Shown here: positions 36,001 through 61,556 of the stretch, one piece after another
Position numbering within the stretch: the first letter of the stretch is position 1
Layout of the letters: each line of letters opens with the position of its first letter
Source: Terriglobus saanensis SP1PR4
GTDB taxonomy: Bacteria > Acidobacteriota > Terriglobia > Terriglobales > Acidobacteriaceae
Reading direction: 5' to 3'
Assembly: GCF_000179915.2 (NCBI RefSeq)
Contig: NC_014963.1
Span: 1,426,001 to 1,490,000 of the forward strand
Length of the DNA: 64,000 nucleotides
Program-made: the position numbers and the translations under genes
Notes under the pieces: generated by a model
What the model saw: the letters and a program-made list of their open reading frames with translations, nothing else
Databases searched by the model: none
What the model was told of the DNA's origin: nothing

Positions 36001-36137
36001 GCTCCAGGCGAGTTCGCTTCGTCTGCGCTCGTCATGTTTCCTGGGGAGGCTTCAGACATTTCTCCTCGCGCACCGAAGGATGCACTGACCATCAGCAAGA
36101 GCAACACCATGAACAATAGCTTTTGAGGCCGCCTCAT
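33048..36137 (-). CDS. Large sensor histidine kinase with periplasmic two-component-regulator propeller
   Basis: 1029 residues from the ATG at 36137, where a signal peptide starts (MRRPQKLLFMVLLLLMVSAS). The periplasmic part is a string of Reg_prop blades (GYLWIGSSLGLYRFDGLRFA, GNVWVGTDRGLDRFK, GRLWLGYGENKVVVRDEG), about 14 in two propellers, followed by a Y_Y_Y domain (RYRYRLMGENMTWQDAGS). One membrane helix (GWFRALCVLALGACAWLI) leads to a HisKA_3 domain with His820 in VARELHDGLLQGF and a HATPase with DDGRGIPP. It detects an extracellular, often carbohydrate-like ligand and phosphorylates the regulator encoded downstream. Confidence 0.93.
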   Translation of the reverse strand: MRRPQKLLFMVLLLLMVSASFGARGEMSEASPGNMTSADEANSPGAGLLPPLPAPAFEGTTHTFWTRRDGAPGSITSLAQTKDGYLWIGSSLGLYRFDGLRFATYPFGPADRQLPSLDIAALSADPSGGLWIALRNTAVVHLNANGTSTHYGRDSGLIPNTLDGIFVRPDGSVWVTGGSRLFRLEGERWIDLREKDGLFSGGIFSVLFDREGNIWVGRDKRLAILRKGANRFEDLPYAVHYVSSIVQSKTGEIWVADAWRSVRSLSDKSSKGAFHLEGKAELLVDREDTLWIAQDDEGLARIRNISDPGKKLSIETAGLADLSARETHALLEDREGNVWVGTDRGLDRFKKTPFIPFRATELRFFPSLIAADDGSVWINSHGSSLMRVLDGKTTPIGPHVNTGPLGKRRNGDICFADLTAYELQCYGSSATREKLPDAMQHVPPKSLIEDTDGSLILATQGKGIWRYADRQWAPFNQVGHSLGGPWSLYSDASGRLWLGYGENKVVVRDEGSYKELHVQDGLWSNTLAFAEGAATIWLGGSNGVCFVDGQSLHRMHTLDRDLLLGTSGIAFDRFGSMWLNSAAGVLRITPNEIIRLKKDPSYLVRAEVFDENDGLVGLPTQYKRTPSAITDSRGNLWFATSGNVVSLDPSRLGVRATLPSVLIENVLVDGRPVVQAPGLPGAVLHTSSARFHDLEINYIGINLSAPERVRYRYRLMGENMTWQDAGSRRQAFYTRLSPGTYQFQVSASNGGEWSDLAAPLRIEVEPAFYQTGWFRALCVLALGACAWLILSARTRFVTEQLHSRLSERLAERERVARELHDGLLQGFQGLMMRFHLATQAIPRSEPSRAEMEQALDRADELLIESRDQIKHLRYETLVPLSLYEAVSQLQEELGSHGSARFSVTAQGAARDLNPLSYPEIYAIAREGILNAYKHSRATKIEVTIAFNPRRLTVRVLDDGRGIPPDTRQFKGTSDHWGIAGMHERAENLRAEFRISSPAEGGTLILLVVPAVVAYTTSPKSFWQRLLHRN

Positions 36138-36458
36138 TCTTGAAACTTCGCCTGATGCGTTCAAGAGTCCTCGCAGATGTACCCCCAAGGATAACGGCAC
36201 CACTATAGTCTCGCGCTGGCTGTTCGTAACCCCACCTAAGTATTGCTTCGGATTGTTTTATTTCTGCCGTACGAGCAGTCCAAGATAGTCGCGCGCCCAC
36301 ATTGATTCCTTCGGAGCAAGCCCTAGGTGGGATGCGTCAGACCACCAGTTGGTGTCTTCTTTGATCAGCTGGCCGAACACGAGGCGAACGTTCACGTATC
36401 GCGTCCGCAAGTCAATTTGGCGCAGGCTACAGACAACTTCAAGACAGGAGATAAGCAC
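36138..36458. other. Divergent intergenic region
   Basis: No gene is supported. It separates the leftward kinase gene from the rightward hydrolase gene and should hold both promoters. Codons upstream of the hydrolase ATG are open but show no family similarity. Confidence 0.35.
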
Positions 36459-43805: not shown

Positions 43806-45332
43806 TTATTTGAAATCTAAGAACTGCTGAATCCGAGCCGGAAAGAGATGCAACAACTGTGGTGAGCGCCTGAGCATGGGGCGCAGCAGAGTTTTGGAGA
43901 AGAGTGAGAAGGCTCCGAGGACCAAGATCGCTGCACCGCCGCCGACGCAGACTAGGCGCAGAAAATCAGGCATCGGGGGCAACAACAGCTCGAGGCCTTT
44001 TGAGACCGCTGCCGCAAAGAGAGCGAGGAGGAGACCTGGAGTTGAGGTCTCCATGAGATCTGTCCAACGAATACGAATCTCGCGATGGACCGCCGTTGTG
44101 AGCAGGAAGAAGCGGAAGAGATATAAGCCAAGCACGGTCCAACTAAGCGCCAGCACCGAATACCGGATCGCGATGACATAACCCGCTACCGCAAGGACGG
44201 CGACGATGAGTTGAGCGCCAAAGTCAATCTGCGGCTTTCCACGCGCTATCAGGAGCGGTTCGGAGAGGCTCATCACAGCGTTGACCGCCATGGCGAGTGC
44301 AATAGGACGCATATAAGGCACCGCATTCGCCCACATTTTTCCATACAGTCCAAGGACCACAACGTCGGCTGCCGCTGCAACTGCGGCAAACATGGGCAGG
44401 ATTACGAGCAGTAAAAGCCCAAAGACGGAGGCGTAGACCCTGCGCAGCTTTTCTTCGTCTGTCTGCACGCGGGAGAAGGCTGGGAGAAGGACGCCGAGCA
44501 AGCTGGAGGTGATGGTTTCGGTCGTGTTGCCGAGCGTCGTGAAAGCTCGGCTATACAAGCCGAGAGCGAGCGGTCCTGCGACGCGTCCGACGACCGTGTT
44601 ATCCAGATTGCTGATGCCCCAACGACATACGTTCGCCCCGAAGACACGGATCCCGAAGTGGAGTAACGGAAGATGGTCGGGATGGAAGAGCGGTTTGATC
44701 GAGTGCGGCTGACGGAGAAAGACGAGGACGCTATACAGGAAAGACTGCGTGAGCCAGGCAGCAACGAGACTCCACACCCCGGCACCCATTAAGGCGAGCG
44801 AGAGGCCGACCAAGGGGTATCCGACGACATAGGAGAGGATGGCGATGGCCTGGACCGATCGGGCATCCTGGCGTCGGTTGAGCAAAGCCAGGGCCGTGGT
44901 TCCAAATGCCTGGAGGACAAACAGCAGCGAGCAGACGCGTAACAGGAGCATCAGCTTCGGCTCATGGAAGAAGCGTGAGAGGATGGGCGCTCCGCAGAAG
45001 AGGAGCGTGGTCATCAGTATGCCGAAGGCCATTTGACAGGTGAAGCAGAAGCGGATGTCGCCTTCCGCCAAGTCTTCCTTTTGGAGCAGTGCAGAACTGA
45101 GGCCTACGTTCGAGAGCAGACTTCCAAAACCGAAGACGATCATCGCCACAGCGAGTTCGCCGAAAGGCCTTGGGCCTAGCAGGCGTGAGAGCAAGGTATT
45201 AATTCCAAAAGACAAAACCATCTTAACGACTGAGCCGATGTAGTTCCATCCGAGGGCTCGGCCTGTGGTCGTGGTGAGACTTTCCTGGAGATTGGGCACC
45301 GTGATCCTCTTATAGGCACTGGCGACGTTCAC
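43806..45332 (-). CDS. Polysaccharide/lipid-linked glycan flippase (Wzx/MOP superfamily)
   Basis: 508 residues from a GTG start. 12 to 14 hydrophobic segments are predicted by eye. The N-terminal half has the family look (RALGWNYIGSVVKMVLSFGI, TLLSRLLGPRPFGELAVAM, SNVGLSSALLQKEDL). It flips undecaprenyl-linked oligosaccharide units across the inner membrane. It is the last gene of the leftward arm, 9 bases after the NUDIX gene. Its presence implies that the product of the cluster is a glycan or glycolipid that leaves the cytosol, rather than a soluble small molecule. Confidence 0.9.
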   Translation of the reverse strand: MNVASAYKRITVPNLQESLTTTTGRALGWNYIGSVVKMVLSFGINTLLSRLLGPRPFGELAVAMIVFGFGSLLSNVGLSSALLQKEDLAEGDIRFCFTCQMAFGILMTTLLFCGAPILSRFFHEPKLMLLLRVCSLLFVLQAFGTTALALLNRRQDARSVQAIAILSYVVGYPLVGLSLALMGAGVWSLVAAWLTQSFLYSVLVFLRQPHSIKPLFHPDHLPLLHFGIRVFGANVCRWGISNLDNTVVGRVAGPLALGLYSRAFTTLGNTTETITSSLLGVLLPAFSRVQTDEEKLRRVYASVFGLLLLVILPMFAAVAAAADVVVLGLYGKMWANAVPYMRPIALAMAVNAVMSLSEPLLIARGKPQIDFGAQLIVAVLAVAGYVIAIRYSVLALSWTVLGLYLFRFFLLTTAVHREIRIRWTDLMETSTPGLLLALFAAAVSKGLELLLPPMPDFLRLVCVGGGAAILVLGAFSLFSKTLLRPMLRRSPQLLHLFPARIQQFLDFK

Positions 45333-46092: not shown

Positions 46093-47268
46093 TTATGTCT
46101 GGAGGTGTACTCCGAGATGAGTGCCAGCCGCATGCATGGCGCGTTGGGGCAATTGGCTATCGACGTCGGCGATCCAGGCCTCAGCGTCAGCGACAGTTGC
46201 GGGTGTAAGGGCGGCGATAGTCTGGGGAAAAGAACATGTTCGGCGATGTTGCTTGACTTCTGCGAGGAGCCGATCGGAGATCGGCGCAACGACAGGATCG
46301 AACTGAGCGATCTCAACGATGTTGGCGCCATAGTCGCGGATGGTCTCCAGTGCTGCGGCTGCTGTGATGCGGGCGACATAGCGTTGAAGTTCCGCGATGC
46401 GCCATTCCAGGTGAGTTTGTAGCTGAACGATAGCTCCTGCGTAGAGGCGAGCTTCGCAAGGGTCGGCGAAGGGAAGCCGGAGGTGCCGGTACCAGGCCAG
46501 CGTGGTGTGTAGGGTACTGATGAACTGAATGGTTCTGAAGCATTTACGAACGAATCCTGTGAACTCCGTTGCAGGGTTACGCTCATCGCGAAGAGTTGTT
46601 CCGGCGGGAACGATGGATCCGAAGGCGATCACCTGGGGAGCGACGATGCCAGCGTTCCCGCCGATAAAGACTGGTTGCGAACGCTCGAGAAGACCGGACG
46701 CATCGCCGAAGAGGCTGGCGAACTTGTCTCGTTTGGGGCTGAAGTTGAAGTGGATAGCTCCGGAACCGATCTCGGTGTGGTCCATGCGTGAGGTGCCACC
46801 GGTGACGTAGACATCGCAGAAGTTGATCAGGGATCCCGCGACGACGGATGCGGCAAAGAAGGAGTTCTTGAGACCGACTGCGTGGCCAACTTCGACACCC
46901 TCTTCGAGTACGGTGCCGCGACGAATCTCGGCCGCGCCGCGCACCTTTGTGCCATCCAGCAGTGCGCAGTCGGTGAAACTACCCGCGTCGAGCTGGACTT
47001 CGCGACCGACCTGAACATTCGCGAGGGAAGCGATGCCGTACGCGCCGATCATCGAGCCCCTGCCCACGGAGGTAGTCTGGCCTCGAACAATCGCGTTCAT
47101 CAAACATACGCCGGCTTCGATGAAGGGAAGTGTTACTTCGGGGCCGATGAAGACGCGCTGCGGACTGGAGATGACGACACCCTGGTCACGAAGGGCGGCG
47201 ACGCGCTGGCTATTTCCCAGCTCATCCTGGAGTGAGTTCTGCTCGTCCTTAAGCGCATCGAAGTTCAC
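46093..47268 (-). CDS. Left-handed beta-helix (GlmU C-terminal-like) protein without nucleotidyltransferase domain
   Basis: 391 residues from a GTG at 47268, chosen because AGGAAG lies 8 bases upstream (an alternative GTG at 47301 is less likely). Residues about 30-235 carry hexapeptide repeats (VFIGPEVTLP, GSMIGAYGIASLANVQVG, VLEEGVEVGHAVGLKNSFF) and the GlmU-like stretch DHTEIGSGAIHFNFSPKRD. The C-terminal ~150 residues are helical and not typical of GlmU. It may transfer an acyl group to an amino sugar or amino-cyclitol, or act as a sugar-1-phosphate enzyme partner. First gene of the leftward arm. Confidence 0.8.
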   Translation of the reverse strand: MNFDALKDEQNSLQDELGNSQRVAALRDQGVVISSPQRVFIGPEVTLPFIEAGVCLMNAIVRGQTTSVGRGSMIGAYGIASLANVQVGREVQLDAGSFTDCALLDGTKVRGAAEIRRGTVLEEGVEVGHAVGLKNSFFAASVVAGSLINFCDVYVTGGTSRMDHTEIGSGAIHFNFSPKRDKFASLFGDASGLLERSQPVFIGGNAGIVAPQVIAFGSIVPAGTTLRDERNPATEFTGFVRKCFRTIQFISTLHTTLAWYRHLRLPFADPCEARLYAGAIVQLQTHLEWRIAELQRYVARITAAAALETIRDYGANIVEIAQFDPVVAPISDRLLAEVKQHRRTCSFPQTIAALTPATVADAEAWIADVDSQLPQRAMHAAGTHLGVHLQT

Positions 47269-47460
47269 GGACAGTCTTCCTGTGTCGCCTAGAGGCCACA
47301 CTGCAGAAATAGATATTCAAATTGTGTCCCAGCGCATGTTAGCGTTGTCTCGCTCAGAGACAGTGCCGGGAACCAAATTACCACGGACCTCTTGATCGAC
47401 TTTTGACACTTCCGTGAAAGCAAGGGCCAGGTGTACTGCGAAGCTTTTCTTAGGGGGAGC
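47269..47460. promoter_or_regulatory. Divergent promoter region of the cyclitol cluster
   Basis: The 192 bases between the leftward beta-helix gene and the rightward aminotransferase must hold both promoters. An AT-rich patch lies at 47307-47330 (agaaatagatattcaaattg). A TTGACA-like -35 box faces right at 47403-47408, although no good -10 box sits at the ideal distance. Confidence 0.45.
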
Positions 47461-48573
47461 ATGTTCATAAGTCCACGGTATAACTACCCTGCGCAGTTCG
47501 GAGAGAGCATTGACTCCCTGATGTCTGACCTGCGCGCCATGCTGCTTGGCGGGAAGTATATTCTCACCACCGAGGTTCGAGATTTTGAAGAGTCGTTCGC
47601 CGCATACAACGGGGTTGAGTTCGCCCGTGGGGTGAATAGCGGCACCGATGCGCTTGTCATCGCGCTGCTTGCGCTTGGGATTGGGCGTGGCGACGAGGTC
47701 ATCACGCACGCGAACAGCTTCCATGCGACGGCGGCGGCGATCGACCTTGTGGGGGCGACCCCGGTCCTGGTCGACGCGGACGAAGACACGTATCTGATGG
47801 ATGTGACCCAGGTTGCGGACGCCATCACGGAGCGTACGCGCGCCATTATTCCAGTCCATCTCTTTGGAAAGCCAACGCCGATGGGTGAACTGCTCAAGCT
47901 GGCGAAGTCGATGGGCGTCGTGGTGGTGGAGGATGCCGCGCAAGCCCATGGGGCGGTGATCGATGGGCGTCGCGCGGGTTCGTTCGGTGTGGCGGGATGT
48001 TTCAGCTTTCATCCCAGCAAGAACCTGGCGGCTGCGGGCGACGGTGGAGCGATCATCAGCGATGATCCTGAGCTCATGGAGAAGGTCGATCAGTTCCGTG
48101 CGCTCGGACAACGTGCGCAAAACGAGCATGTGGAGGTTGGATTCAACAGTAAGCTGGATGCGATCCAGGCGCGCATCCTCTCCTGCAAGCTGGAGCGGCT
48201 TGATGCCTGGAACAGTGCAAGAGCCTGGGTGGCGGAGAGGTACAGGAGCGGGCTGGCCGGACTTCCGTTGAGCATGCAACGCCATGATCCTGATGAGATA
48301 CATGTCTATCACCTGTTTCAGGTGAGGACGAAGCATCGAGACGCGCTGCTGAAATCTCTAGTGGGGGAAGGCGTTGATGCAGTCATCCGGTATCCGACGC
48401 CCATCCATCTGCAACCTGCTTTTGCGCAATTCGGTTGGAAGCGAGGACAGTTCCCAGTGGCTGAGTCGCTCTCCGAAGAACTGATCTGCCTTCCACTTCG
48501 ACCGGATATGGAGGAGGGCGAGATCGATTATGTGACTTCCAAAGTGCACGCGTTTTATGAGTCTGTTGTGTAA
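47461..48573 (+). CDS. DegT/DnrJ/EryC1/StrS-family PLP aminotransferase
   Basis: 370 residues from the ATG at 47461, with AGGGGGAG upstream. Substrate region NSGTDALVIALLALGIGRGD is followed by EVITHANSFHATAAAIDLVG, the PLP-binding Asp in VVVEDAAQAHGA and the Schiff-base Lys in FSFHPSKNLAAAGDGGA. Enzymes of this type transfer an amino group from Glu or Gln to a keto-sugar or keto-cyclitol. First gene of the rightward arm. Next to a sugar-phosphate cyclase it could install the nitrogen of an aminocyclitol, as ValM/AcbV-like enzymes do. Its exact substrate cannot be told. Confidence 0.94.
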   Translation: MFISPRYNYPAQFGESIDSLMSDLRAMLLGGKYILTTEVRDFEESFAAYNGVEFARGVNSGTDALVIALLALGIGRGDEVITHANSFHATAAAIDLVGATPVLVDADEDTYLMDVTQVADAITERTRAIIPVHLFGKPTPMGELLKLAKSMGVVVVEDAAQAHGAVIDGRRAGSFGVAGCFSFHPSKNLAAAGDGGAIISDDPELMEKVDQFRALGQRAQNEHVEVGFNSKLDAIQARILSCKLERLDAWNSARAWVAERYRSGLAGLPLSMQRHDPDEIHVYHLFQVRTKHRDALLKSLVGEGVDAVIRYPTPIHLQPAFAQFGWKRGQFPVAESLSEELICLPLRPDMEEGEIDYVTSKVHAFYESVV

Positions 48574-48663
48574 GCTCGTCGATGTTTTGTCTTTCGCAAG
48601 AACCATGCAAGAAGCTCTTCAATGCAATCAACATTTAGGTCACTTCACTTGAAAGGCCTCTTC

Positions 48664-49023
48664 ATGATGAAAGCCTCTTTTACTTCTGTCCTTGCTATAC
48701 CGGCCATCGAACGGGGCAATGAGCATGGGGGTCTAGGGCCGATCTCTTTCAGGCGTCTGCTACGAGAGACCGACTTCAAGGCTCCAATCGACTTTGTCGA
48801 TTACACGATTGTGCCTTCGGGGTCAGCTATTGGAATGCATCAGCATGTCGGCAACGAAGAGATGTATTTTGTGGTGTCGGGCGAACCTCTAATGCGTGTG
48901 AATGGTTACGAAGCACGGCTTGCAAAGGGATCGCTTTCGGTAGTGCGGGATGGGGAGTCGCATGAGTTGATCAACGACAGGGGCGGTGACGTTGAGATTC
49001 TTGTCATCCAAGTGCGGGTATAG
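48664..49023 (+). CDS. Single-domain cupin protein
   Basis: 119 residues from the ATG at 48664 (the next ATG at 48667 is also possible). The cupin motifs are present: GMHQHVGNEEMYFVVSGEPL (metal-ligand His, His, Glu) and DGESHELINDRGG (second His). Small cupins act as isomerases, epimerases or dioxygenases, or bind sugars. In this operon an epimerase or isomerase step on the cyclitol or sugar is plausible, but no specific family is recognised. It ends 4 bases before the cyclase start. Confidence 0.85.
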   Translation: MMKASFTSVLAIPAIERGNEHGGLGPISFRRLLRETDFKAPIDFVDYTIVPSGSAIGMHQHVGNEEMYFVVSGEPLMRVNGYEARLAKGSLSVVRDGESHELINDRGGDVEILVIQVRV

Positions 49024-49027
49024 CAAC

Positions 49028-50791
49028 GTGCAGACATCCACTCTGGTGATCGAACAGGCCGCTTCGGGTTGGGTGGCGCACCGTTTTGGAGAGGATCCAG
49101 TCGCGATGAGGGGGCTTGACGCGGATGCCTTACCGCAGGGTCTGATTGAGTTTGCCTCGCACGTCGCGAGACGCCTCGGTCAATCTTCGGCACAATGCAC
49201 GATGGTAGTCACCCATGAGAACTCAGAAGCGAAGCCCACTCGTGGCAGTGCAGGCTTCATCGTACCTCTGACCCGTACGCTAGCCCTCGCCTATCTCGCA
49301 CCAGCAAACTGGGATAAGTTTCTTGTGCTGGAAATGGGTGCGAGGCCGGTGGCAAGCCTCGCCATGCGGCACGATGGCTCGTTGAGGGAAGAGCGTCTTG
49401 CAGGCGCCACGCTCGAAGAACTGATCAGCCTGGTGAAGATGTTGGAAGTCCGGTTCATGCTGGTTCACTCGACGGAGCCGTTTGTAACCACACCGGATTT
49501 TTTTCCGGAGACGTCTGGTCTTCAGATTGAATCGGTGCACAACGCGGGAGCAATTGTTGAAGGTGCGAGGCGGGCTGCCACCCACTTTGAGCGTGGCTCT
49601 GGCGTGTGGCAGGTTGCATCCGGACATACGCGCATGCGGGCGAACCATACGTCGAGTTACGATCTCTACCGTCCCAACCTTGCGACCTTCGATCTCAACG
49701 AGGACACGCTGGAGCGCATCGTTAGCTCCCGTCCAGTCTTCTTCGTCATCGACCAGGTCATTGAGGCGATGCATGGGAGTGCGATTCGGTGCTATGGGCG
49801 AAAGCGTCTGAACATGATCGGCGAGTTTGTCTGTGCTGGGACGGAAGCCGAGAAGACGGTGAAGATGGCGGAGGATATCTGCCGTGCGGCTCTCAGTGCG
49901 GGCCTTCGCCGCGATGGCCTGATCGTTGCTGTGGGCGGTGGTGTAACGCTCGATGTGGCGGGCTTTGCAGCTTCGATTTTGCGCCGAGGGGTTCGCTATG
50001 TCCGTGTTCCCACGACGCTCATTGGTCTGGTCGACGTCTCGGTAGGAGTGAAACAGGCAGTCAACGCCTTCGGAACGAAGAATGTGCTGGGCTCTTTCTA
50101 TCCTCCGCTCGCCTGCGTGCTGGATTATGGGTTTCTGAAGACGCTGCCGGCCTGTCACATCGCGGCGGGATTTTCAGAGGTGATCAAGATGGCGATCCTC
50201 TGCGATGGCCCTCTCTTCGAAGAGATTGAACGTCATGGCCCGACCCTGACCTTCTCTTCTTTTCAAGAACCGAAGGAAGTTGGGATGCGGATTGCCGAGA
50301 CGGCTGAACTGCTCATGATGCAGGAGCTTGCGCCGAATCTGTTTGAAGACGATCTTGCTAGGCGCGTGGACTTCGGCCATACGTTCAGCCCAGTCATCGA
50401 GATTGATAGCGATTTCAGAATAAGCCACGGTGAAGCGGTCGGTCTGGACATGCTCCTCTCGACCGCCATCGCCGCCAATTGCGGTCTCTGCAATTCGGAT
50501 GTGTTGGATCGGTTGGCGCGATTGTTGGATGCGTTGAGCCTGCCTGTCTGGCATGAAGAGATGCCATCGCCCTCGCGGTTAATGATCGCGTTGTCGAAGG
50601 CCCGAGATCATCGTGGCGGAGCGCTCAACCTTGTTGTTCCGCGTTCGGCGGGGTCGGTTGCGTTTCTCCAGGATGTGAGCGTGGAAGAGCTCGTCCGCGC
50701 ATGTAACGATCTTCAGCGATTCGCCATAACAGAAAGGCTAGCCAGTCCAAACCCAATGGAGAGAAGCGATGGTCCAAGCCTTAGCATTTGA
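49028..50791 (+). CDS. Sugar-phosphate cyclase (2-epi-5-epi-valiolone-synthase-like) with novel N-terminal domain
   Basis: 587 residues from the GTG at 49028, four bases after the cupin stop. Residues about 200-570 are a DHQ-synthase-superfamily cyclase: NAD site AVGGGVTLDVAGFAASILRR (about 300-320), VPTTLIGLVDVSVGVK, and zinc ligands Glu384 (GFSEVIKM), His451 (DFGHTFSP) and His467 (ISHGEAVGLDM). The GHTFSP form, in place of GHTFGHA, points to the sedoheptulose-7-phosphate cyclases (EEVS/DDGS type) rather than AroB. Residues 1-190 form an extra domain I do not recognise (TLVIEQAASGWVAHRF, FLVLEMGARPVASL). It should make a C7 cyclitol from sedoheptulose 7-phosphate. The kinase gene overlaps its end. 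Confidence 0.88.
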   Translation: MQTSTLVIEQAASGWVAHRFGEDPVAMRGLDADALPQGLIEFASHVARRLGQSSAQCTMVVTHENSEAKPTRGSAGFIVPLTRTLALAYLAPANWDKFLVLEMGARPVASLAMRHDGSLREERLAGATLEELISLVKMLEVRFMLVHSTEPFVTTPDFFPETSGLQIESVHNAGAIVEGARRAATHFERGSGVWQVASGHTRMRANHTSSYDLYRPNLATFDLNEDTLERIVSSRPVFFVIDQVIEAMHGSAIRCYGRKRLNMIGEFVCAGTEAEKTVKMAEDICRAALSAGLRRDGLIVAVGGGVTLDVAGFAASILRRGVRYVRVPTTLIGLVDVSVGVKQAVNAFGTKNVLGSFYPPLACVLDYGFLKTLPACHIAAGFSEVIKMAILCDGPLFEEIERHGPTLTFSSFQEPKEVGMRIAETAELLMMQELAPNLFEDDLARRVDFGHTFSPVIEIDSDFRISHGEAVGLDMLLSTAIAANCGLCNSDVLDRLARLLDALSLPVWHEEMPSPSRLMIALSKARDHRGGALNLVVPRSAGSVAFLQDVSVEELVRACNDLQRFAITERLASPNPMERSDGPSLSI

Positions 50792-51776
50792 TCTCGGGGG
50801 CACTCACCTGCGCGGCGCCTTGGTGAAGGGAAACAACCTGAGTCGCTCCGCAAGCTACCGTCTCCAGAACTCGGAGCAGGTATCGCGGCATTCTGATGTG
50901 TGGGACGTGATTGTGCGTCACATGCTTCTCTATGAGCGCGCCAGCGTGGAGTTTCTGGCCGCTTCGGATCCGATCGTGGTGTCGTTTCCCGGGCCAGTGC
51001 GGAAAGGCCGCCATATTGTTCAGGCGCCCACCGTGACTGGTGCTGGCGCGGGTCCTCGCGATCTGGCTCTGGAACTGGAACAGAAGACAGGCAGGGGAGT
51101 GCATCTGCTGAACGATGTTTCGGCTGCTGCATGGCATCTGAGTGGTCGGACCGCTGCCGATCGATTCATGGTGGTGACGGTCAGCAGCGGGATAGGTGCC
51201 AAGATTTTTGACCGGTCTCATTTTGCGGGTGTGATGGACGAGCCGATGTATGCGGGAGAGATAGGCCATGTAGTAGTGGATGACCGGCCAGCTGCTCCGA
51301 TGTGCGATTGCGGGGGACGAGGCCACCTGGGAGCGATCGCTTCCGGGCGTGGTATCGAACGCGCGGCCCGTATTCGTGCGCGGGAGTTTCCCCAGGATTT
51401 CTCGCAGTCGATACTCCATGCGCAAGTGGGCGCAGCGACGGAGACTCTTACCAACGAGCAGCACATCGTCCCAGCGGCGCTGGCGGGAGATGACTGGACG
51501 CTGAGGCTGATCCGCGAAAGCACACGACCGCTGGCGCGTGTGCTTCTGGCGAATGTGCTCGGCGTCGGTTTGCAGAAGGTCTTCATCATTGGTGGGTTCG
51601 CCCAGGCCCTGGGCAGCTTGTATCTGCAGATGCTCACAGATCTCATGGGCGAGATGAGCCAGTATGCTGTGCTCGAGGATGCAATTCCGACATTGGTGGA
51701 GGCTGGATATTTGCACGGCGAATGTTGCTTGATGGGATGTGGAGCCTTCCTCCAGGCAAAGGAGCAAAGCCGATGA
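50769..51776 (+). CDS. ROK-family (glucokinase-like) kinase
   Basis: 335 residues. ATP-binding phosphate loop FDLGGTHLRGALVK, catalytic Asp116 in LLNDVSAAAWH, and the ROK signature AGEIGHVVVDD (162-172) are all present. The zinc motif CXCGXXGC reads CDCGGRGH (179-186), with His in place of the third Cys. Glucokinase-like kinases phosphorylate the cyclase product at C7 in validamycin and acarbose biosynthesis, which is the likely role here. It overlaps the cyclase by 23 bases and the next gene by ATGA. Confidence 0.9.
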   Translation: MVQALAFDLGGTHLRGALVKGNNLSRSASYRLQNSEQVSRHSDVWDVIVRHMLLYERASVEFLAASDPIVVSFPGPVRKGRHIVQAPTVTGAGAGPRDLALELEQKTGRGVHLLNDVSAAAWHLSGRTAADRFMVVTVSSGIGAKIFDRSHFAGVMDEPMYAGEIGHVVVDDRPAAPMCDCGGRGHLGAIASGRGIERAARIRAREFPQDFSQSILHAQVGAATETLTNEQHIVPAALAGDDWTLRLIRESTRPLARVLLANVLGVGLQKVFIIGGFAQALGSLYLQMLTDLMGEMSQYAVLEDAIPTLVEAGYLHGECCLMGCGAFLQAKEQSR

Positions 51777-53020
51777 TCTTCACGATTCTGGGAGGCAGTG
51801 CACCGAGTACACCTGTTGTCGTTGAAGCATTGGCCCGCCTTGTTCCGGACGAGATGCTGACGATCCGTTTGGCAGGCCGCCAGCGTGACCGGTTGGAGGC
51901 AGTTGGGCGTGCCTGCCGATTGCTGTCGCAAGGAAGCTGTTTCGACGTGGAGGTCTATGGGCCGGGTGAGTGGCGTGCGGCGATCGAAGGAAGCAATCTC
52001 ATTCTGATCCAAAGCCGGATCGGTAACTATGAGGCGCGCGGCTTCGACGAAGCTTTTCCTATCGAGTTCGGCATACCGGGAGACGAGGGACTGGGACCTG
52101 GAGGGCTTTCGGCTGCGTATCGGACATGGCCCCAGTTGAAAGAGATTTGCTGCAGGATTCAGGCGCATGCGCCGAAGGCACAGACCGTATTGCTCACCTC
52201 GCCAAGCGGTCTGCTGGTTCGCCTTGCGGCGCTTGAGTTTTCCGGTTGGCCCCTGCTCGCAACCTGCGAACTGCCTTACACCACATTGAAGGCACTCTGC
52301 TCGATTGCGGGGGAAGATCCGGACGATATGACTTTCGACTACACCGGGGTGAATCACCTTGGCTATCTTTATAACCTGCATGCGAAGCGGGATTTGCTCG
52401 CTACCTACCAAGAACGGGCTGACGCAAAAAACTTTCCCTCGGCTGCACTGCTCGCTCGGCTCAATGCTTTTCCTTTGAAGTATCTCAGGCTCCACTACGA
52501 GCAGGAAGAGGTTGTGCAGGAACAACGCGACCGAATGGTCCCGCGGGCTCATGAGCTTGGCAAGATTGCTTCTCATGCGCTGGAGTGCTTCCATTTCGGA
52601 GATGAGGCTGTCATCCGCGAAGCGCTGAGCCAAAGGCGAGCGGACTGGTACGAGTTCGCGGTGATTCCGCTGGTCCTCTTCCATTTGAAGAGGGAAGTGA
52701 GGCAACCGATATTTCTCACCTCGGCAGACGATGCAGGGGAGGTGCGGGAGAGAGCGTTTCGCGTACGCAAGAGTGCCCTGGCCTATGTGCCTCCGAAAGC
52801 CCCGGCGACAGATGAGGTGGAGGACCTGGTGAATGCGTTTGCAAGGTATGAGCGCGTCGCGGCCGAAGCCGTTCTAGCAGGAACGGAGGAGGCGCTTTCG
52901 AGCGCGCTGGCACTTCACCCCTGGGTTAAGACAGGGAGCGAGCATGAGCTTGCAAGCATCATTCTTTCGCAGCCTTTCGAGCGCAGGACGAGTGAGGGGG
53001 AAAAGTTATGGCAGAACTGA
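51773..53020 (+). CDS. GH4-like NAD-dependent enzyme
   Basis: 415 residues from the ATG at 51773, overlapping the kinase stop (ATGA). The GH4 outline is visible: TILGGSAPSTP for NAD; SRIGNYEARGFDEAFPIEFG and IPGDEGLGPGGLSAAYR; metal ligands Cys165 (ATCELPY) and His195 (GVNHLGYLYN). The usual sNP motif is TSPSG. GH4 enzymes work by oxidation at C3, elimination and re-reduction, with NAD and Mn. In a biosynthetic operon it may eliminate or epimerise at a cyclitol or sugar rather than hydrolyse a glycoside. An unusual partner for a cyclase cluster. Confidence 0.85.
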   Translation: MIFTILGGSAPSTPVVVEALARLVPDEMLTIRLAGRQRDRLEAVGRACRLLSQGSCFDVEVYGPGEWRAAIEGSNLILIQSRIGNYEARGFDEAFPIEFGIPGDEGLGPGGLSAAYRTWPQLKEICCRIQAHAPKAQTVLLTSPSGLLVRLAALEFSGWPLLATCELPYTTLKALCSIAGEDPDDMTFDYTGVNHLGYLYNLHAKRDLLATYQERADAKNFPSAALLARLNAFPLKYLRLHYEQEEVVQEQRDRMVPRAHELGKIASHALECFHFGDEAVIREALSQRRADWYEFAVIPLVLFHLKREVRQPIFLTSADDAGEVRERAFRVRKSALAYVPPKAPATDEVEDLVNAFARYERVAAEAVLAGTEEALSSALALHPWVKTGSEHELASIILSQPFERRTSEGEKLWQN

Positions 53021-53964
53021 GAGTAGCGATCTTTGGCTGTGGCCGCATGGGGAACGAACGGGCGCGCTGCGTCCAGGAGGCCGGGGCAACCGTGGTCTTT
53101 GTCTACGATCCGGATGCCGAACGCGCGGCGAAGATGGCGCTCGAGTTCGGAGCGGAAGCAATCGCAACGCAGGATGACCTTCCCTGGTCCGATGTTGACG
53201 CAGTCTTCTTTTGCACGCCGCCCCATTGCCGTGAGGCACAGGCACTGGCCGCGATCCGGGCGAAGGTTCCCTTCCTGGCGGAGAAGCCCATTGGAATCTC
53301 GCATGCGGCTTCAGACCGAGTGCTCGCTGCTCTGACAGACGCGCCAGTCGTGAACGCCATTGGCTATATGAATCGATGCCGTGCATCCATCCTGCAGGCG
53401 AAGGCATTGCTCGAGGACTGCCGCTTGCTTGGCATCTCCGCACACTGGGTATGTAGGCAGTACACAGTCCCCTGGTGGCTGGATGAAAGTGCGAGTGGCG
53501 GACCCATGAACGAGCAGGCAACCCATCTCTTCGACCTCTGTCGCTTTCTGGGTGGAGAGGTGGAAGAGGTCACTTCACTGGCGGCGTTGAACGGAAGTCA
53601 TGCGGTTCAGCCTCTTGGATCGGCCTCCGCATTGCGCTTCTCCTCTGGCATTCTAGGAACCATCTTTTACTCATGCGAAAGCTCGGTCAAGGACATTGGC
53701 TTGCACCTTTTTACGGATAAGGGCGGCATAGAGCTTTCAGGCTGGGACTTTCAGATGACGTCGAACATGGTGACGAACACGCTGCCTCTACCCTCGGATG
53801 AAAATGTCTTCCTGACCGAGACGCGAGTCTTTCTGGAAGCCGTTGAGTCCGGCAGCAGAGAGAAGGTTGCATGCGACTGGGAGGAAGCAGCGCGTACTCA
53901 ACTCTTGGTCGATGCGGCACGGCGCTCGATGAGCGAAGAAAGGGAGCTGGAGTTGCAGACATAG
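53008..53964 (+). CDS. Gfo/Idh/MocA-family NAD(P)-dependent oxidoreductase
   Basis: 318 residues, with GAGGGGG just upstream of the ATG, inside the end of the GH4-like gene. Rossmann motif VAIFGCGRMGNERARCVQEA; the EKP motif in FLAEKPIGISH (about 90-100); and the C-terminal domain contains ASGGPMNEQATHLFDLCRFL with the catalytic His. Family members oxidise or reduce sugar and inositol hydroxyls. Here it may oxidise or reduce the cyclitol to set up transamination, as in scyllo-inosamine or aminocyclitol pathways. Cytosolic. Confidence 0.92.
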   Translation: MAELRVAIFGCGRMGNERARCVQEAGATVVFVYDPDAERAAKMALEFGAEAIATQDDLPWSDVDAVFFCTPPHCREAQALAAIRAKVPFLAEKPIGISHAASDRVLAALTDAPVVNAIGYMNRCRASILQAKALLEDCRLLGISAHWVCRQYTVPWWLDESASGGPMNEQATHLFDLCRFLGGEVEEVTSLAALNGSHAVQPLGSASALRFSSGILGTIFYSCESSVKDIGLHLFTDKGGIELSGWDFQMTSNMVTNTLPLPSDENVFLTETRVFLEAVESGSREKVACDWEEAARTQLLVDAARRSMSEERELELQT

Positions 53965-54003
53965 TTCTTCGTGCTTGCATCGCGTTTCTTAGGAGACACA
54001 TCG

Positions 54004-54759
54004 ATGTTCGAATCACATTGCGCGGGATTGGTGATGGCTGGGGGACGTTCCTCCAGGATGCGGCGTATTTGTGCCACGCATAAGAGCCTGCGCACGGTGG
54101 AAGGCGTTCCCCTGATTGAGTGGAATATCTCCTCTCTTCTCTTCCACGGGATAAGAAATATCTTTGTCGCTGTCAATGCCCGGGAGATCGAACTGAGCGA
54201 ATGGATTCGCGGGTACGGAACGGACCTGGCCCATTCGGCGGGGGCGCGGCTTACGACGATCGTGGAAGATGTTCCCCTTGGAACGATCGGTGCGGTCACT
54301 CGCTTGCCGTCGGAAATTGATCCGGTGCTTGTGGTCAATGTCGATAACCTCACCGACTTGCCGCTCGCACGGATGGTCGAATTTCATATCGGGCGCGGTG
54401 CTGCCGCTACGATCGCAACGCACGCCGAGCCATTCAAGATTCCCTTTGGCCGGTTGGAGACAAAGCAGGACGACGTCACTGCCTATGAGGAAAAGCCCGA
54501 TATCTTCGTACAGATCTCAAGCGGCACCTGCGTCTTCTCACGCCGTGCGATCGACTCGATGGCGCTAAAATCCCGAACGGATGTGCCCGACTTAATACGG
54601 ACTCTGATTGCAAGCCGCGAGAGAGTAGCTGCCTTTCGGCATAACAGCCGATGGATTGATGTGAACGACGAGGAAGCTCTTGGGCGCGCCCACGTATTGC
54701 TGGAAGATCGAGGCGACTTGTGGCCCGGAGCTGAGTTCCGCAGGAACGCACATGCATGA
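54004..54759 (+). CDS. Sugar (or cyclitol) phosphate nucleotidyltransferase
   Basis: 251 residues from the ATG at 54004, with TAGGAGAC upstream. Nucleotide-binding loop AGLVMAGGRSSRMR with conserved Lys in HKSLRTVEGVPLIEW; metal Asp in LVVNVDNLTDLP; product-site region FKIPFGRLETK and YEEKPDI, typical of RfbA/RmlA/GCD1-like enzymes. It joins an NTP to a sugar-1-phosphate. In the validamycin pathway ValB activates valienol-1-phosphate in the same way. The GT gene starts inside its last codons. Confidence 0.92.
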   Translation: MFESHCAGLVMAGGRSSRMRRICATHKSLRTVEGVPLIEWNISSLLFHGIRNIFVAVNAREIELSEWIRGYGTDLAHSAGARLTTIVEDVPLGTIGAVTRLPSEIDPVLVVNVDNLTDLPLARMVEFHIGRGAAATIATHAEPFKIPFGRLETKQDDVTAYEEKPDIFVQISSGTCVFSRRAIDSMALKSRTDVPDLIRTLIASRERVAAFRHNSRWIDVNDEEALGRAHVLLEDRGDLWPGAEFRRNAHA

Positions 54760-55993
54760 TCGACGCATCAAAGTGCTCTCGTTGGTTCCTGACCTCGGCC
54801 TCGGCGGAGGCGAAAACCGCGTGCTCAATCTTGCGAGAACGATTGATCGCAGCAAATTCGATCTGACCGTTGGGACCTTCTTCTCACGCGATCCAATCGC
54901 GGAAGCCAAGTGGGGAAGCCTGCATCCCGAGTTTGAGAGTGCGGGCATCGACGTGGTCGATCTGAGGCTGACGCGACCGAAGAAGCGGTTCCAGTCGCGC
55001 CCTCTCCAGGTGGTCAGTACGTTGATCGCTCTGGTGCGCGCGGCGGTTCACCTGCGTCGCTTCATTCGTGAACGAGAGATCGATGTCGTGGACGCTCACA
55101 TGGATGGATCGCTTCTGATCGCGGTCGCGGCTGCGGTCTCTGCACGTGTACCGGTCGTGGTTACGCTTTATCACGTGCAGACCATCCCTCCGAAGCCCCT
55201 GCTCCAGCCCTTTAGGATTCTGTGCCTGCACTTGATCGCTGCGTTGATCACGGATTCACAGGCCCGCGTCCATGACTTCGAAGCGGTAATGCCACGGGTG
55301 CATGCGCCGATCTTCTACATCCCGAATGGTGTTCGCCTGGAACCGCCCAAGAAGACGCGGGAGGAGGTCCTCGCGTTCTTTGACATTCCGTCGAACGCCA
55401 ACACGATCATCGGACAAGTCAGCGGGCTTTCACCCTTCAAAGGGCACCGATTTTTAATTGAGGCCGCCGTCCAGGTGGTGGCCGAAAACGAGAAGATGTA
55501 CATCCTTTGCGCAGGGTTTTCGCGTGGATTTGATGCTCATATTGATGAACTCTGGATACAGGCTAAGGACCTTGGCATTGCCGACCGCGTGCGCATCGCA
55601 TCTTATCCCGGAAGCATCGCGGACGTCTGGCAGATCATCGACGTGCATGTCCATGCGTCCACCTTCGACTCCCTGCCCAACGCAATCATCGAAAGCATGT
55701 CCCTCGGCAAGCCGGCAGTAGTGACGTCGGTCGGAGGCATTCCTGACGTGGTGGAGAACGGAAAGACCGGCATCGTCGTTCCGCCAGGAGATGCGGCTGC
55801 ATTGGCCGAAGCCCTGCTTTGTCTACTCAACGACCCGGAGTTCGCTACGTGTCTCGGCCATGCAGCCTCTCTTCGTTACTTTGAAACCCTCACGCCGGAG
55901 TGCTGCACGCGCGCCGTGGAACGTTGCTTTCTGGAGATCACTTCGACGCCTGCCGAGAAGAAGGCGGCGTTGTTCCGTGAGCCAATCACATGA
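54752..55993 (+). CDS. GT4-family glycosyltransferase
   Basis: 413 residues from the ATG at 54752, overlapping the upstream stop by 8 bases. GT-B fold: N-terminal LVPDLGLGGGENRVLNLART; acceptor domain; the C-terminal donor domain has GQVSGLSPFKGHRFLIEA, then DVHVHASTFDSLPNAIIESM and SLGKPAVVTSVGGIPDVVEN, the EX7E motif region of family 4. It uses a nucleotide-activated sugar or cyclitol and retains anomeric configuration. With the flippase at the other end of the cluster it supports a glycan or glycolipid product. Confidence 0.93.
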   Translation: MHDRRIKVLSLVPDLGLGGGENRVLNLARTIDRSKFDLTVGTFFSRDPIAEAKWGSLHPEFESAGIDVVDLRLTRPKKRFQSRPLQVVSTLIALVRAAVHLRRFIREREIDVVDAHMDGSLLIAVAAAVSARVPVVVTLYHVQTIPPKPLLQPFRILCLHLIAALITDSQARVHDFEAVMPRVHAPIFYIPNGVRLEPPKKTREEVLAFFDIPSNANTIIGQVSGLSPFKGHRFLIEAAVQVVAENEKMYILCAGFSRGFDAHIDELWIQAKDLGIADRVRIASYPGSIADVWQIIDVHVHASTFDSLPNAIIESMSLGKPAVVTSVGGIPDVVENGKTGIVVPPGDAAALAEALLCLLNDPEFATCLGHAASLRYFETLTPECCTRAVERCFLEITSTPAEKKAALFREPIT

Positions 55994-56934
55994 GCTCCGT
56001 GCAGGAGCAAAGCCGAGACATGGTGCTGGTTACCGGAGCTGCGGGCTTCATCGGACGTCATGTCGCGCATGCGCTCACCGAAGCAGGATTCGGCGTGCGG
56101 AAGCTTCTCGAACCGGCCAGTGGTTCGAACGAGGCTCTAAACGCGCTCTCATCCGATGAAGCATACGGCGACATCTGTGATCGTGCACTGCTCGCGCGAC
56201 TCGCCTCGGGAGTAGACATCGTCGTGCATCTCGCGGGGTCTCCCTCGGTGTCCGAATCGTTCGAGAACGCGGCAGAGTGCGCGCGCGTTCATCTCCAGGG
56301 AACGATCTGTGTTCTGGACGCTTGCCGCAAAGCAGGCGTGAGGCGACTGATCTATATGTCCTCTGCCGAGGTGTATGGCAGACCGGAGACAGACTACGTC
56401 GCTGAAACGCATGCCTTGAACGCACGCTCTCCTTACGCCGCGGCAAAGATCGGGGCGGAGGCCATGATGAGCGCATATAGCTCAGCCTTCGCGATGGATG
56501 TGATCATCGTGCGGCCCTTCTCCGTCTACGGACCCGGAGCCTCTCCCCATGCGTTGCTTTGCGAGGCGCTTGCGACTACTGCGCGCGGGGAAGAGGTGAA
56601 GGTCCGCAATCTACGGCCTGTGCGAGATTACATCTTCGTCAGTGATGTGGCCGATGCTGTCGTCAAAGCATGCTCGATCGAACCGGCGGCCCACTTGTTG
56701 GTCTTCAATCTCGGCACCATGCGGGGCACGAGCGTCGCCGATCTCTGCAGACTCGTGCTTGCAGCATTCGATCGTCCGGGACAGGCCATAGAAGAGGGCG
56801 AGCAAAGACCGGGAGCCAGCGAGATCTACCGCCTCGTCTCCGATAACAGGTGTGCCCAGGAAGGACTGGGCTGGACACCTCGGACGTCTTTAGAGCAAGG
56901 TATCCATCAAATGGCCGAGGTATACAAGCGATGA
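55990..56934 (+). CDS. NAD-dependent epimerase/dehydratase (extended SDR)
   Basis: 314 residues, with ATGA overlap with the GT gene. Extended-SDR marks: VLVTGAAGFIGRHVAHALTE; VVHLAGSPSVSES; SSAEVYGRPETDYV; catalytic Tyr/Lys in SPYAAAKIGAEAMM; and RPFSVYGPGASPH. Substrates in this family are nucleotide sugars (UDP-glucose 4-epimerase and dTDP-dehydratase relatives). It may set stereochemistry on the activated sugar used by the adjacent transferase. Confidence 0.92.
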   Translation: MSSVQEQSRDMVLVTGAAGFIGRHVAHALTEAGFGVRKLLEPASGSNEALNALSSDEAYGDICDRALLARLASGVDIVVHLAGSPSVSESFENAAECARVHLQGTICVLDACRKAGVRRLIYMSSAEVYGRPETDYVAETHALNARSPYAAAKIGAEAMMSAYSSAFAMDVIIVRPFSVYGPGASPHALLCEALATTARGEEVKVRNLRPVRDYIFVSDVADAVVKACSIEPAAHLLVFNLGTMRGTSVADLCRLVLAAFDRPGQAIEEGEQRPGASEIYRLVSDNRCAQEGLGWTPRTSLEQGIHQMAEVYKR

Positions 56935-57968: not shown

Positions 57969-60920
57969 ATGATCGTCTTTCGGAACCTCACGACACTTTG
58001 GTTGGTATGGACACTGCTTGTTTTCGCGCAGTGCCTGCGCGCGGCCCAATCGCCTATGCAAAGTGGGCCTCAGTTCACACGCGACCTCTGGCGGGTGTCG
58101 GACGGGTTGCCGGAAGACACGGTGCAGGCGCTTGCTGTGGCGAAGGACGGCGTTCTGTGGCTCGGGTCGACGGGGGGATTGGTCCGGTTCGATGGATTTC
58201 ATATGCAGGCCTATGGTGCTGGCCAGTCTGCTCCTTTGCCCGTGAATAGTATCTTCTGCCTGGTTGCCGATGGTGATGGCGATCTCTGGGCCGGAACGGA
58301 AGGTGGCGGTCTGCTGCGCATTCGCAGCAACGCTTTGAAGAGTTACTCCGTGGAGGAAGGGCTCACCGACGGCTTTGTTCGCAGTATTTTGCTGGACAGT
58401 CAGAAGCGCCTTTGGGTTGGAACGGATGACGGTCTCTTCAGAATGAATGACGGACGTTTGCAGCGCGTAGATCGAAGCAACGGCATTCCGGCTGTGGCCG
58501 TGCATGTCATCGCAGAAGATCGTGAGCACCGTATCTGGGTCGGCGGATCTCGTCTCATGGCGATCAATCCCGACGGGACGGCAAAGCAGTATGAACTTCC
58601 CGGAGCGTATAGCGAGAACCGCGTCAAGACGATCGTTGAGGATCACAATGGAACGATCTGGGTAGGCACCGTCGGCGGTTTGCAGCAGCTGGAAAATGGG
58701 CAGTTCCATACGGTGCATGGCATTCATGCTACGGTGCGCAGTCTATTACAGGCGAGCGATGGCACGCTATGGATCGGCACCATTGGACGGGGCCTGTGGA
58801 GTTTTAGTAATGGGCGTTTGAGTCAGCCGCTGTCTCAGGGACTACTCCCAAGTAATACGATTCTCAGTCTTCTGGAGGATCCGCAGAAGCAGATCTGGGT
58901 AGGGACGCAAGCGGGGCTTGCCCGTCTCCAGCAATCGCCTGTTCACCTGATTCCTCTAGCTGAGGGAAGCGATCCCGACTTCGAGACGATCTCCGGTGAC
59001 GCACGGGGAAATCTGTGGGTTGCTGCACAGAGCTTGTATCTCATTCATGACAGCGTGGCCAACCGGACTCACTACAACGAAGTGGGAAGTGCCAAAATTC
59101 GTAATGTCTTCCGAGCTCGCGACGGTGCACTCTGGCTTGGGACCGACGGAGAAGGTGCGTTTCGTCTTGGAGAGAACAAAGTGAACCATTACTCCGCTCC
59201 CAAAGATCTGACGAATAACTTCATCCGCGGCTTCCTCGAAACGCGTAGCGGAGAAATCTGGCTGGCGACGGACGAAGGCATCAACCGTGTGAAGGACGAA
59301 AAAGTACAGAAGCTGGGCGCAGCGGACGGCCTGGCTTATTTTAGTACGCGATGTTTGATGGAGGACCGGCACGGCCAGGTATGGATCGGCACAGAGCGTG
59401 GGCTCAGCATGTGGCGGGCGGGGCGATTCCAGCAAAACGCTGCAACTCGCGCCCTCGCGCAGGAAAAAACCTGGTCTATCCTCGAAGACCGTAAAGGGAC
59501 CTTGTGGTTCGCGACACGCGACCATGGCCTATTTCGTGTGCGTGGAGATGTGGTTGAGCAGTTCACCATGGGCCAGGGGCTGCCGACGAATAGCTTCTAC
59601 CAGATTCTGCAGGATAAGCGTGGTGTGTTCTGGATGACGGGACCGAATATCATCGCCTCGGCGACGGAATTGGAGATGGAGCGAAGTGTTCCTCCGTCCG
59701 ATCATCCCCTGGGCGTCACAGTTTTGCGCATGCCCTACGGTGCGGAGAACGCACAGATGTATGGTGGCCGACAGCCCTCGGGTTATGTTGCTCCGGATAA
59801 CAGCGTCTGGTTTCCAACGAACCGCGGGGCTGCGCATATCGTCTCCATGCCACAGACCTCGACACCTGGTCCGCAGGCTGCTCTCGAGCAGATCGTTGCA
59901 GACGGCAATCGCATCGCGGTCGCAGACGAGGCCCACTTGCCAGCGCGTGTAAGCCGCCTTGGCTTTGGCTTTTCAGCGATCTTTCTGCGCTCACAACAAG
60001 AGGTCCGCTTCCGCTATAAGCTGGAGAACTTCGACCACGAATGGAATCTCGCCGGATCCACGCGCTCCGCGCTCTATACGAATCTTCCAGCGGGGAGATA
60101 TCGCTTTCGTTTGGTCGCATTCGACGTGGCACAACCGGACAAGACGAGTGAAGTCAGCATCCTTGTAGTGAAGGCACCTTTCTTCTACCAGACGTGGTGG
60201 TTCTATACGCTCTGCGCGCTCTTGCTTGCTGCTGCGGGATGGACGATCTATCAGATTCGGATCGCGCAAATCCGCACACGATTTGCTGCAGTGCTGGAGG
60301 AGCGTAATCGCCTTGCACGCGAGATGCACGACACGGTGATCCAGGGGTGCACTGGGATCTCCGCACTACTGGAAGCCATCGCGATCACTCCCGAAACGAA
60401 TCAGACAGCGCAGAAAAAGTTATTGGATGTCGCTCGTGACCAGGCCCGCCGCACCATTGATGACGCACGGGATGCGGTATGGGACCTCCGTCACGAACGC
60501 GAGGCGGAGATTGATCTGGTGGCCGCGATTCAGACGGTGGCCCAACAAACGATGCGCGAGTCTGGCAACACCGTGACGGTGACCGGCGATTCGAAACAAG
60601 TCGAAGTACCCGCGTCGATCTCGCACGAAGTTCTCATGACCGTGCGCGAGGCGGTCTATAACTCCGTCCAGCATAGTGGCGCGCGCGCCGTCGAGATTAC
60701 TATTTGCAGCTCCGCAGAGAGCTCCGTGATCGCCATCGTCGATCAGGGCTCCGGATTTATCGATTTGGCGCAGGAGGGACACTATGGCATCCTCGGAATG
60801 CGCGAACGGATGCGGCGAGCAGGCGGCGAGTTCGATCTGGTAAGTGTGCCGGGCGAGGGCACACGTATCACGTTGTCGCTCAAACGTTCTGTCAGACCGC
60901 AGCGCAGAAAGCAGGATTGA
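57969..60920 (+). CDS. Large sensor histidine kinase with periplasmic propeller, cluster-linked
   Basis: 983 residues. Signal peptide MIVFRNLTTLWLVWTLLVFA. About 14 Reg_prop blades (GVLWLGSTGGLVRFDGFHM, GDLWAGTEGGGLLRI, GTIWVGTVGGLQQLENGQF) form two periplasmic propellers to about residue 640. A Y_Y_Y domain (RYKLENFDHEWNLAGSTRS) and one membrane helix (about 740-765) follow. HisKA_3: AREMHDTVIQGCTG with His787; HATPase with DQGSGFIDLAQEGHYGILGM. Same architecture as the kinase at 33048-36137. It lies between the cyclitol cluster and a GH35 gene, so it probably senses a carbohydrate that induces one of them. Confidence 0.94.
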   Translation: MIVFRNLTTLWLVWTLLVFAQCLRAAQSPMQSGPQFTRDLWRVSDGLPEDTVQALAVAKDGVLWLGSTGGLVRFDGFHMQAYGAGQSAPLPVNSIFCLVADGDGDLWAGTEGGGLLRIRSNALKSYSVEEGLTDGFVRSILLDSQKRLWVGTDDGLFRMNDGRLQRVDRSNGIPAVAVHVIAEDREHRIWVGGSRLMAINPDGTAKQYELPGAYSENRVKTIVEDHNGTIWVGTVGGLQQLENGQFHTVHGIHATVRSLLQASDGTLWIGTIGRGLWSFSNGRLSQPLSQGLLPSNTILSLLEDPQKQIWVGTQAGLARLQQSPVHLIPLAEGSDPDFETISGDARGNLWVAAQSLYLIHDSVANRTHYNEVGSAKIRNVFRARDGALWLGTDGEGAFRLGENKVNHYSAPKDLTNNFIRGFLETRSGEIWLATDEGINRVKDEKVQKLGAADGLAYFSTRCLMEDRHGQVWIGTERGLSMWRAGRFQQNAATRALAQEKTWSILEDRKGTLWFATRDHGLFRVRGDVVEQFTMGQGLPTNSFYQILQDKRGVFWMTGPNIIASATELEMERSVPPSDHPLGVTVLRMPYGAENAQMYGGRQPSGYVAPDNSVWFPTNRGAAHIVSMPQTSTPGPQAALEQIVADGNRIAVADEAHLPARVSRLGFGFSAIFLRSQQEVRFRYKLENFDHEWNLAGSTRSALYTNLPAGRYRFRLVAFDVAQPDKTSEVSILVVKAPFFYQTWWFYTLCALLLAAAGWTIYQIRIAQIRTRFAAVLEERNRLAREMHDTVIQGCTGISALLEAIAITPETNQTAQKKLLDVARDQARRTIDDARDAVWDLRHEREAEIDLVAAIQTVAQQTMRESGNTVTVTGDSKQVEVPASISHEVLMTVREAVYNSVQHSGARAVEITICSSAESSVIAIVDQGSGFIDLAQEGHYGILGMRERMRRAGGEFDLVSVPGEGTRITLSLKRSVRPQRRKQD

Positions 60921-60923
60921 GGC

Positions 60924-61556
60924 GTGGAGAAGGAAGCGAAAGCAATCCGTGTCCTGATTGTGGATGATCATCCGATCATGCGCGTCGGCATTGCTGCCAT
61001 CATCAACGCGCAGGGAAATATGCAAGTGGTGGGTGAGGCTGGGACCGCCAGCGAAGCGATTCGTCTCCACGCAAAGCTATTGCCTGACATTACGCTCATG
61101 GATCTCCGTTTGCCCGATGGCAATGGTGCCGAGGCCATTCGCGTGATCTGCGCCGCATCGCCTTCCGCACGCATCATTGTGCTGACAACGTACGAAGGGG
61201 ATGAAGACATCCATCAGGCTATGGAGGCGGGCGCACGAGGCTATCTCATCAAGGGTATGCCGCATGATGCTTTGATTCGCGCGATGCATCGCGTGCACAC
61301 AGGACACCGCTTTCTCCCGCAGGTAATCTCCGAAGCGCTCTCTTCTCGCGTCCCTGGATCGAACCTCAGCCAGCGCGAGCAGGAGGTGCTGCAGCTTCTT
61401 TTCGCAGGCAAGAGCAATCGTGAGATCGCCGAGGAGTTGCAGATCAAGGAGACCACGGTGAAGACCCATGTGAGCGTGATTCTGATGCGCTTGAATGTAG
61501 AAGACCGGACACAGGCCGTGGTGGAAGGTCTGAAGCGTGGCTTAGTGCATTTATAG
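60924..61556 (+). CDS. NarL/FixJ-family response regulator
   Basis: 210 residues from a GTG at 60924, four bases after the kinase stop. Receiver domain: IRVLIVDDHPIMRVGIAAII, phospho-acceptor Asp60 in LMDLRLPDGNG, TTYEGDEDIHQAMEAGARGY. LuxR HTH: LSQREQEVLQLLFAGKSNRE and IAEELQIKETTVKTHVSVIL. Partner of the kinase immediately upstream and a close relative of the regulator at 32255-32929. Likely targets: the GH35 gene downstream or the biosynthetic operon upstream. Confidence 0.95.
   Translation: MEKEAKAIRVLIVDDHPIMRVGIAAIINAQGNMQVVGEAGTASEAIRLHAKLLPDITLMDLRLPDGNGAEAIRVICAASPSARIIVLTTYEGDEDIHQAMEAGARGYLIKGMPHDALIRAMHRVHTGHRFLPQVISEALSSRVPGSNLSQREQEVLQLLFAGKSNREIAEELQIKETTVKTHVSVILMRLNVEDRTQAVVEGLKRGLVHL

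Follow-up and report, generated by a model that had tools for sequence, protein, structure and literature searches.

The window analysed here, a 64,000-nucleotide stretch of DNA from Terriglobus saanensis SP1PR4 (NC_014963.1), contains a run of genes on one strand encoding an aminotransferase, a cupin protein, a sugar-phosphate cyclase, a ROK-family kinase, a GH4-like protein, a MocA oxidoreductase, a nucleotidyltransferase, a GT4 glycosyltransferase and an SDR protein (Table 1). The cyclase ORF begins with a GTG located 5 bases 3' of the cupin stop codon, and its frame can be extended upstream to a second GTG at 48986, within the cupin gene.

Table 1. Coordinates of the cyclase, its domains and motifs, and the neighbouring genes (window positions).
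Feature	Position	Strand	Evidence or remark
Hexapeptide-repeat (GlmU C-terminal-like) protein, divergent	46093..47301	-	Profile match; 40% identical orthologue in G1075 cluster
DegT/DnrJ/EryC1-type aminotransferase	47431..48573	+	PF01041, 5e-109
Small cupin protein, directly upstream of cyclase	48622..49023	+	PF07883
Fused cyclase ORF, 587 aa	49028..50791	+	ORF list, sequence; full-length 585-aa homologue in L010/L029/L030
Orphan N-terminal domain, residues 1-198	49028..49621	+	No family match; in-frame conservation with G788; low-confidence models
EEVS-type sugar-phosphate cyclase domain, residues ~199-576	49622..50755	+	PF01761/PF24621; ValA best by sequence and structure
GGGVTLD NAD-binding motif, residues 303-309	49934..49954	+	Alignments
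Glu384, predicted metal ligand (with His451, His467)	50177..50179	+	Invariant column
DFGHTFSP motif, residues 448-455, EEVS type	50369..50392	+	Residue table; ValA and 5tpr alignments
ROK-family kinase, overlaps cyclase end by 23 bases	50769..51776	+	PF00480
GH4-like protein	51722..53020	+	PF02056
Gfo/Idh/MocA oxidoreductase	53008..53964	+	PF01408; 41-48% identity in related clusters
Sugar (cyclitol) phosphate nucleotidyltransferase	53971..54759	+	PF00483; 42-51% identity in related clusters
GT4-type glycosyltransferase	54758..55993	+	PF13692/PF00534
SDR epimerase/dehydratase	55990..56934	+	PF01370; 45-49% identity in G788, G1075

Related gene sets and the predicted pathway

Orthologues of this gene set are clustered in three other genomes, G788, G812 and G1075. 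The aminotransferase is 56-64% identical across the three related clusters, and the cupin protein is 58-59% identical in G788 and G812 and was not found in the G1075 cluster. Orthologues of the ROK kinase occur in the cyclase gene sets of all three and also in Streptomyces. The GH4-like gene is present in G812 and G1075 and was not found in the 20 kb examined in G788, where the MocA gene directly follows the ROK kinase (L029:7906-9952). In G788 and G812 a stand-alone Nudix gene lies next to that for the nucleotidyltransferase; the G1075 nucleotidyltransferase (L122:5988-7151, minus strand, 387 aa) appears by eye to have a Nudix-like domain fused at its C-terminus. Further afield, Streptomyces sp. 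NBC_00467 has cyclase, cupin, aminotransferase, nucleotidyltransferase, ROK and Nudix genes, and S. clavuligerus has a ROK gene and a cyclase together with a DegT aminotransferase of 51% identity.

Acarbose biosynthesis is among the pathways that open with valiolone synthase. In acarbose biosynthesis AcbC, AcbM (ROK-like), AcbR and AcbV hold roles matching the window gene set (PMC9200736), and a sedoheptulose-7-phosphate (SH7P) cyclase, a ROK-type cyclitol kinase, a nucleotidyltransferase and an aminotransferase are common to both; in the window, however, no AcbS/AcbI-type pair was identified, and GH4-like, cupin and MocA genes are found instead. Because of this gene content, including the acarbose parallels, we infer that a C7-aminocyclitol pathway is encoded, in which the ROK kinase probably has an AcbM/ValC-like role. 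The cyclase product, predicted from sequence to be 2-epi-5-epi-valiolone or a close C7 cyclitol, would be phosphorylated by the ROK kinase and then aminated by the DegT enzyme, while the MocA, GH4-like and cupin proteins would adjust the cyclitol and the nucleotidyltransferase would activate it to an NDP-cyclitol that the neighbouring glycosyltransferase could use.

The C-terminal part resembles ValA

All recognisable homology lies in the C-terminal part of the protein. Pfam places DHQ_synthase (PF01761) at residues 269-378 (8.8e-34) and DHQS_C (PF24621) at residues 381-514 (9.8e-20), the AroB profile covers residues 230-557, and ValA, the closest protein by sequence, aligns to residues 236-559 (2.9e-57), so that cyclase homology sets in at residue ~225-236. 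In these coordinates a ValA-type protein would be expected to start at about residue 166 and an AroB-type protein at about 215, giving an N-terminal excess of ~165-215 residues, which agrees with the ~190 extra residues proposed from the sequence-only reading.

The predicted metal ligands E384, H451 and H467 are invariant, and the conserved Lys, Asn and Arg positions are intact. DFGHTFSP is common to this protein, ValA and the close actinobacterial cyclases, and the corresponding motif is AYGHTWSP in mycosporine-type DDGS and NFGHT[F/I]GH in DHQS; the D, F and P of the window protein are thus of the EEVS type, whereas DDGS has A and W, and DHQS has N and H. PMC4426668 credits Kean et al. 2014 with a 14-residue ValA fingerprint. 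The model fold was also closest to ValA (Z 39.0, rmsd 3.1 over 354 residues). Assignment as AroB (3-dehydroquinate synthase) was rejected, as the TIGR01357 score of 209.7 bits fell below the cut-off of 305; the genome has two more DHQS-like genes at other loci. Motif and tree ruled out the Ebo-type and mycosporine-type cyclase families. From sequence and model, the C-terminal part is best read as an otherwise normal EEVS-type cyclase, a label that spans EEVS, EVS and other C7 outcomes. It would catalyse NAD+/metal-dependent oxidation, phosphate elimination, reduction and aldol ring closure. The likeness to ValA extends over residues ~200-566, the best match in both sequence and model fold, and takes in the metal ligands and the DFGHxFSP motif; in contrast, ValA has 420 residues and lacks the ~165-200-residue N-terminal extension, and the window cyclase lies among surface-sugar-type genes.

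The N-terminal region is protein-coding

A class-level genome search returned one close relative, in G788 (the MAG 'Acidobacteriaceae bacterium isolate CP_BE_RX_54', L030), with 50% cyclase identity and an open frame of 589 codons. Its 585-residue protein has the same layout as the window protein. Over the 600 bases at the 5' end of each gene, the Smith-Waterman score was 106 in the annotated frame and at most 61 in any other pair of frames, and shuffles gave 31±4.8 (maximum 55). As the region aligns with its homologue only in the annotated frame, it is protein-coding, and the 587-residue reading frame is confirmed as real. The sequence-only reading is thereby upheld in its in-frame, unrecognised N-terminal domain, which is conserved and joined to a cyclase of the EEVS type; one further genome carries this fusion too.

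These data bear on whether translation might instead begin at about residue 190-195, the upstream frame being an untranslated or degenerating remnant. The cyclases of G812 and G1075 do begin at the equivalent of residues ~189-203, a GTG lies in frame at residue 193, and no obvious ribosome-binding site precedes GTG 49028. However, the N-terminal region is conserved in frame as protein, with identity to G788 higher at second codon positions than at third (48% v 29%; 0.479 v 0.292); no stop codon interrupts the upstream frame in either genome; and both fusions begin 5-13 bases past the cupin stop. We therefore regard a late start as very improbable. Homologues starting near residue 195, with a conserved start codon and ribosome-binding site there, had been named as what would overturn the fusion; two homologues do start near residues 189-203, which answers to half of this, but they are genuinely shorter proteins of other genomes and do not discredit the start here.

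Identity between the window and G788 proteins was 26% in the N-terminal domain and 49.5% in the cyclase. On these sequence comparisons the N-terminal domain is fast-evolving, diverging at about double the rate of the cyclase.

Distribution of the fusion

The cyclases of this gene set number four (window, G788, G812 and G1075), and two of the four carry the N-terminal domain. G812, of the same genus as G788, has a 406-residue cyclase without the domain, its GTG start overlapping the cupin stop; no other copy of the domain was found in the G812 genome, which is 93% complete, so that a separate copy could sit in the missing sequence. G1075, of the same family as the window genome, has a cyclase of 393 residues, also without the domain.

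No further fusion was found in ~1,900 genome look-ups (with overlapping draws). An alignment scan of genome contigs recovered one fusion, on the G788 contig, while a single-protein scan of genome contigs found no relatives and viral contigs yielded none. Among plasmids, 101 records had cyclases; none of the 101 covered 80% of the query, and the N-terminal domain was unmatched. Phylum-level matches (E 0.004-0.009) and a match in G1011 (E 0.002) were at chance level for ~400 genomes. We found no papers on this fusion.

In the tree, the G788 and G812 cyclases are sisters (95/94) and the window cyclase lies outside them. The simplest history is a single origin followed by loss in G812, the domain having come down from an ancestor shared by the window and G788 genes; otherwise, recruitment of a homologous domain would have had to happen twice. 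Thus, the domain is old and was probably lost at least once. It also appears, from sequence, to be lineage-restricted and dispensable, as the same gene set occurs with ordinary cyclases of 393-406 residues in G812 and G1075.

The N-terminal domain matches no known family

Residues 1-195 matched no Pfam or NCBIfam family, and searches with the domain alone or with its homologue found nothing credible in Pfam, NCBIfam or PHROGs. With the two sequences together and a cut-off of E 10, the sole result was one chance Pfam match (E 0.16), and a profile search of PDB sequences gave chance ribosomal-protein matches (E ~0.8). The earlier statement that the N-terminal part matches no recognised family therefore holds in all four collections. 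The window and G788 copies share no Cys, no His and no glycine-rich nucleotide motif. Residues 1-235 matched no kinase family, NF010627 covering the DHQS part only; a shikimate kinase-DHQS fusion was rejected, there being no shikimate kinase domain at the N-terminus. hhalign against three neighbouring ROK kinases (Prob 0.3%) gave no support for the domain being a ROK kinase or descending from the adjacent one.

AlphaFold models of the domain were poor, with block-mean pLDDT of ~29-63 in the whole protein, and pLDDT 48.8 and pTM 0.55 for the domain alone from two sequences. Secondary-structure elements from residue 83 to ~139 were consistent between both runs, and the low-confidence models predict beta-beta-alpha-beta-alpha followed by beta-beta-beta-alpha-beta-alpha. 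With the model of pLDDT ~49, structural searches gave no significant fold match (lowest Foldseek E = 0.036; best VIA-align Z 4.8).

Role of the N-terminal domain

We favour, with a probability of roughly 0.6, an EEVS-type sedoheptulose-7-phosphate cyclase carrying a ~200-residue accessory domain that is most likely non-catalytic and dispensable. Our best guess for the domain is an accessory role in stability, docking or regulation; by default, it would stabilise the cyclase or dock it to a pathway partner. The domain might instead be a second pathway enzyme, joined to the cyclase in the manner of AROM or shikimate kinase-DHQS proteins. It is domain-sized and conserved in frame across a long divergence, the pathway uses many small enzymes, and DHQS-like proteins do occur in fusions (NF010627, NF010556). 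With just two N-domain sequences, functional residues could go unrecognised, which leaves a catalytic role conceivable. We nevertheless consider this unlikely: no credible enzyme family matched up to E 10, no catalytic motif is visible, G812 holds the gene set complete without the domain, and the domain diverges about twice as much as the cyclase (26% v 49% identity). The 'second activity' suggested from the sequence-only reading is accordingly not supported; its other suggestion, a partner-binding module, may yet be right.

It is equally doubtful that the domain is a diverged actin-like or RNase H-like (ASKHA) pseudo-kinase, perhaps derived from a sugar kinase, that senses a nucleotide or product. 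By our own count RNase H/actin-like folds make up ~39 of the 50 best VIA-align rows, and in the models each half is a strand hairpin followed by a helix and strand. We take this resemblance as an insignificant leaning, since it comes from a model of pLDDT ~49, the top Z is just 4.8 and Foldseek gave nothing below E 0.036; the sequence moreover has no glycine-rich phosphate loop of the DxGGT or GTG type, and the profile probability against the ROK kinases is the 0.3% given above. Similarly improbable, in our view, is a degenerate actin-like ATPase, or a fold not described before with a regulatory or scaffolding function, controlling or channelling C7-cyclitol production; sugar-phosphate cyclases are not known to be controlled in this way.

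The accessory reading has a would-be functional analogy in BtrC. BtrC is a 2-deoxy-scyllo-inosose synthase and BtrC2 a separate PdxT-like protein, an accessory chain of ~20 kDa that supports the cyclase; unlike BtrC2, the window domain matches no PdxT-like family. Shikimate kinase-DHQS and AROM proteins likewise join an extra domain to a DHQS-fold domain, but the window protein differs in its partner, which shows no match to a shikimate kinase or AROM domain, and in having a cyclase of the EEVS type.

The architecture is real and unusual, an EEVS-type cyclase extended at its N-terminus by an orphan domain that evolves fast and is dispensable. This acidobacterial C7-cyclitol gene set occurs naturally with fused and unfused EEVS-type cyclases, and the sister sequences of G788 (fused) and G812 (unfused) offer a direct test of what the domain does.

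To judge from its genes, the set would lead to an aminocyclitol product not yet characterised. A flippase-like gene, named by eye from sequence, lies at 43806-45332, and together with the glycosyltransferases it leads us to guess at a surface glycan or glycolipid as the destination of that product. Elsewhere in the window, a probable ice-binding adhesin of 955 aa (37921-40788, plus strand) combines six Big_5 Ig-like repeats with an Ice_binding domain (PF11999) at its C-terminus. Two large Reg_prop/Y_Y_Y/HisKA_3 sensor kinases flank the cyclitol region (33048-36203, minus strand; 57969-60920, plus strand), the latter followed by a LuxR-type response regulator (60924-61556).
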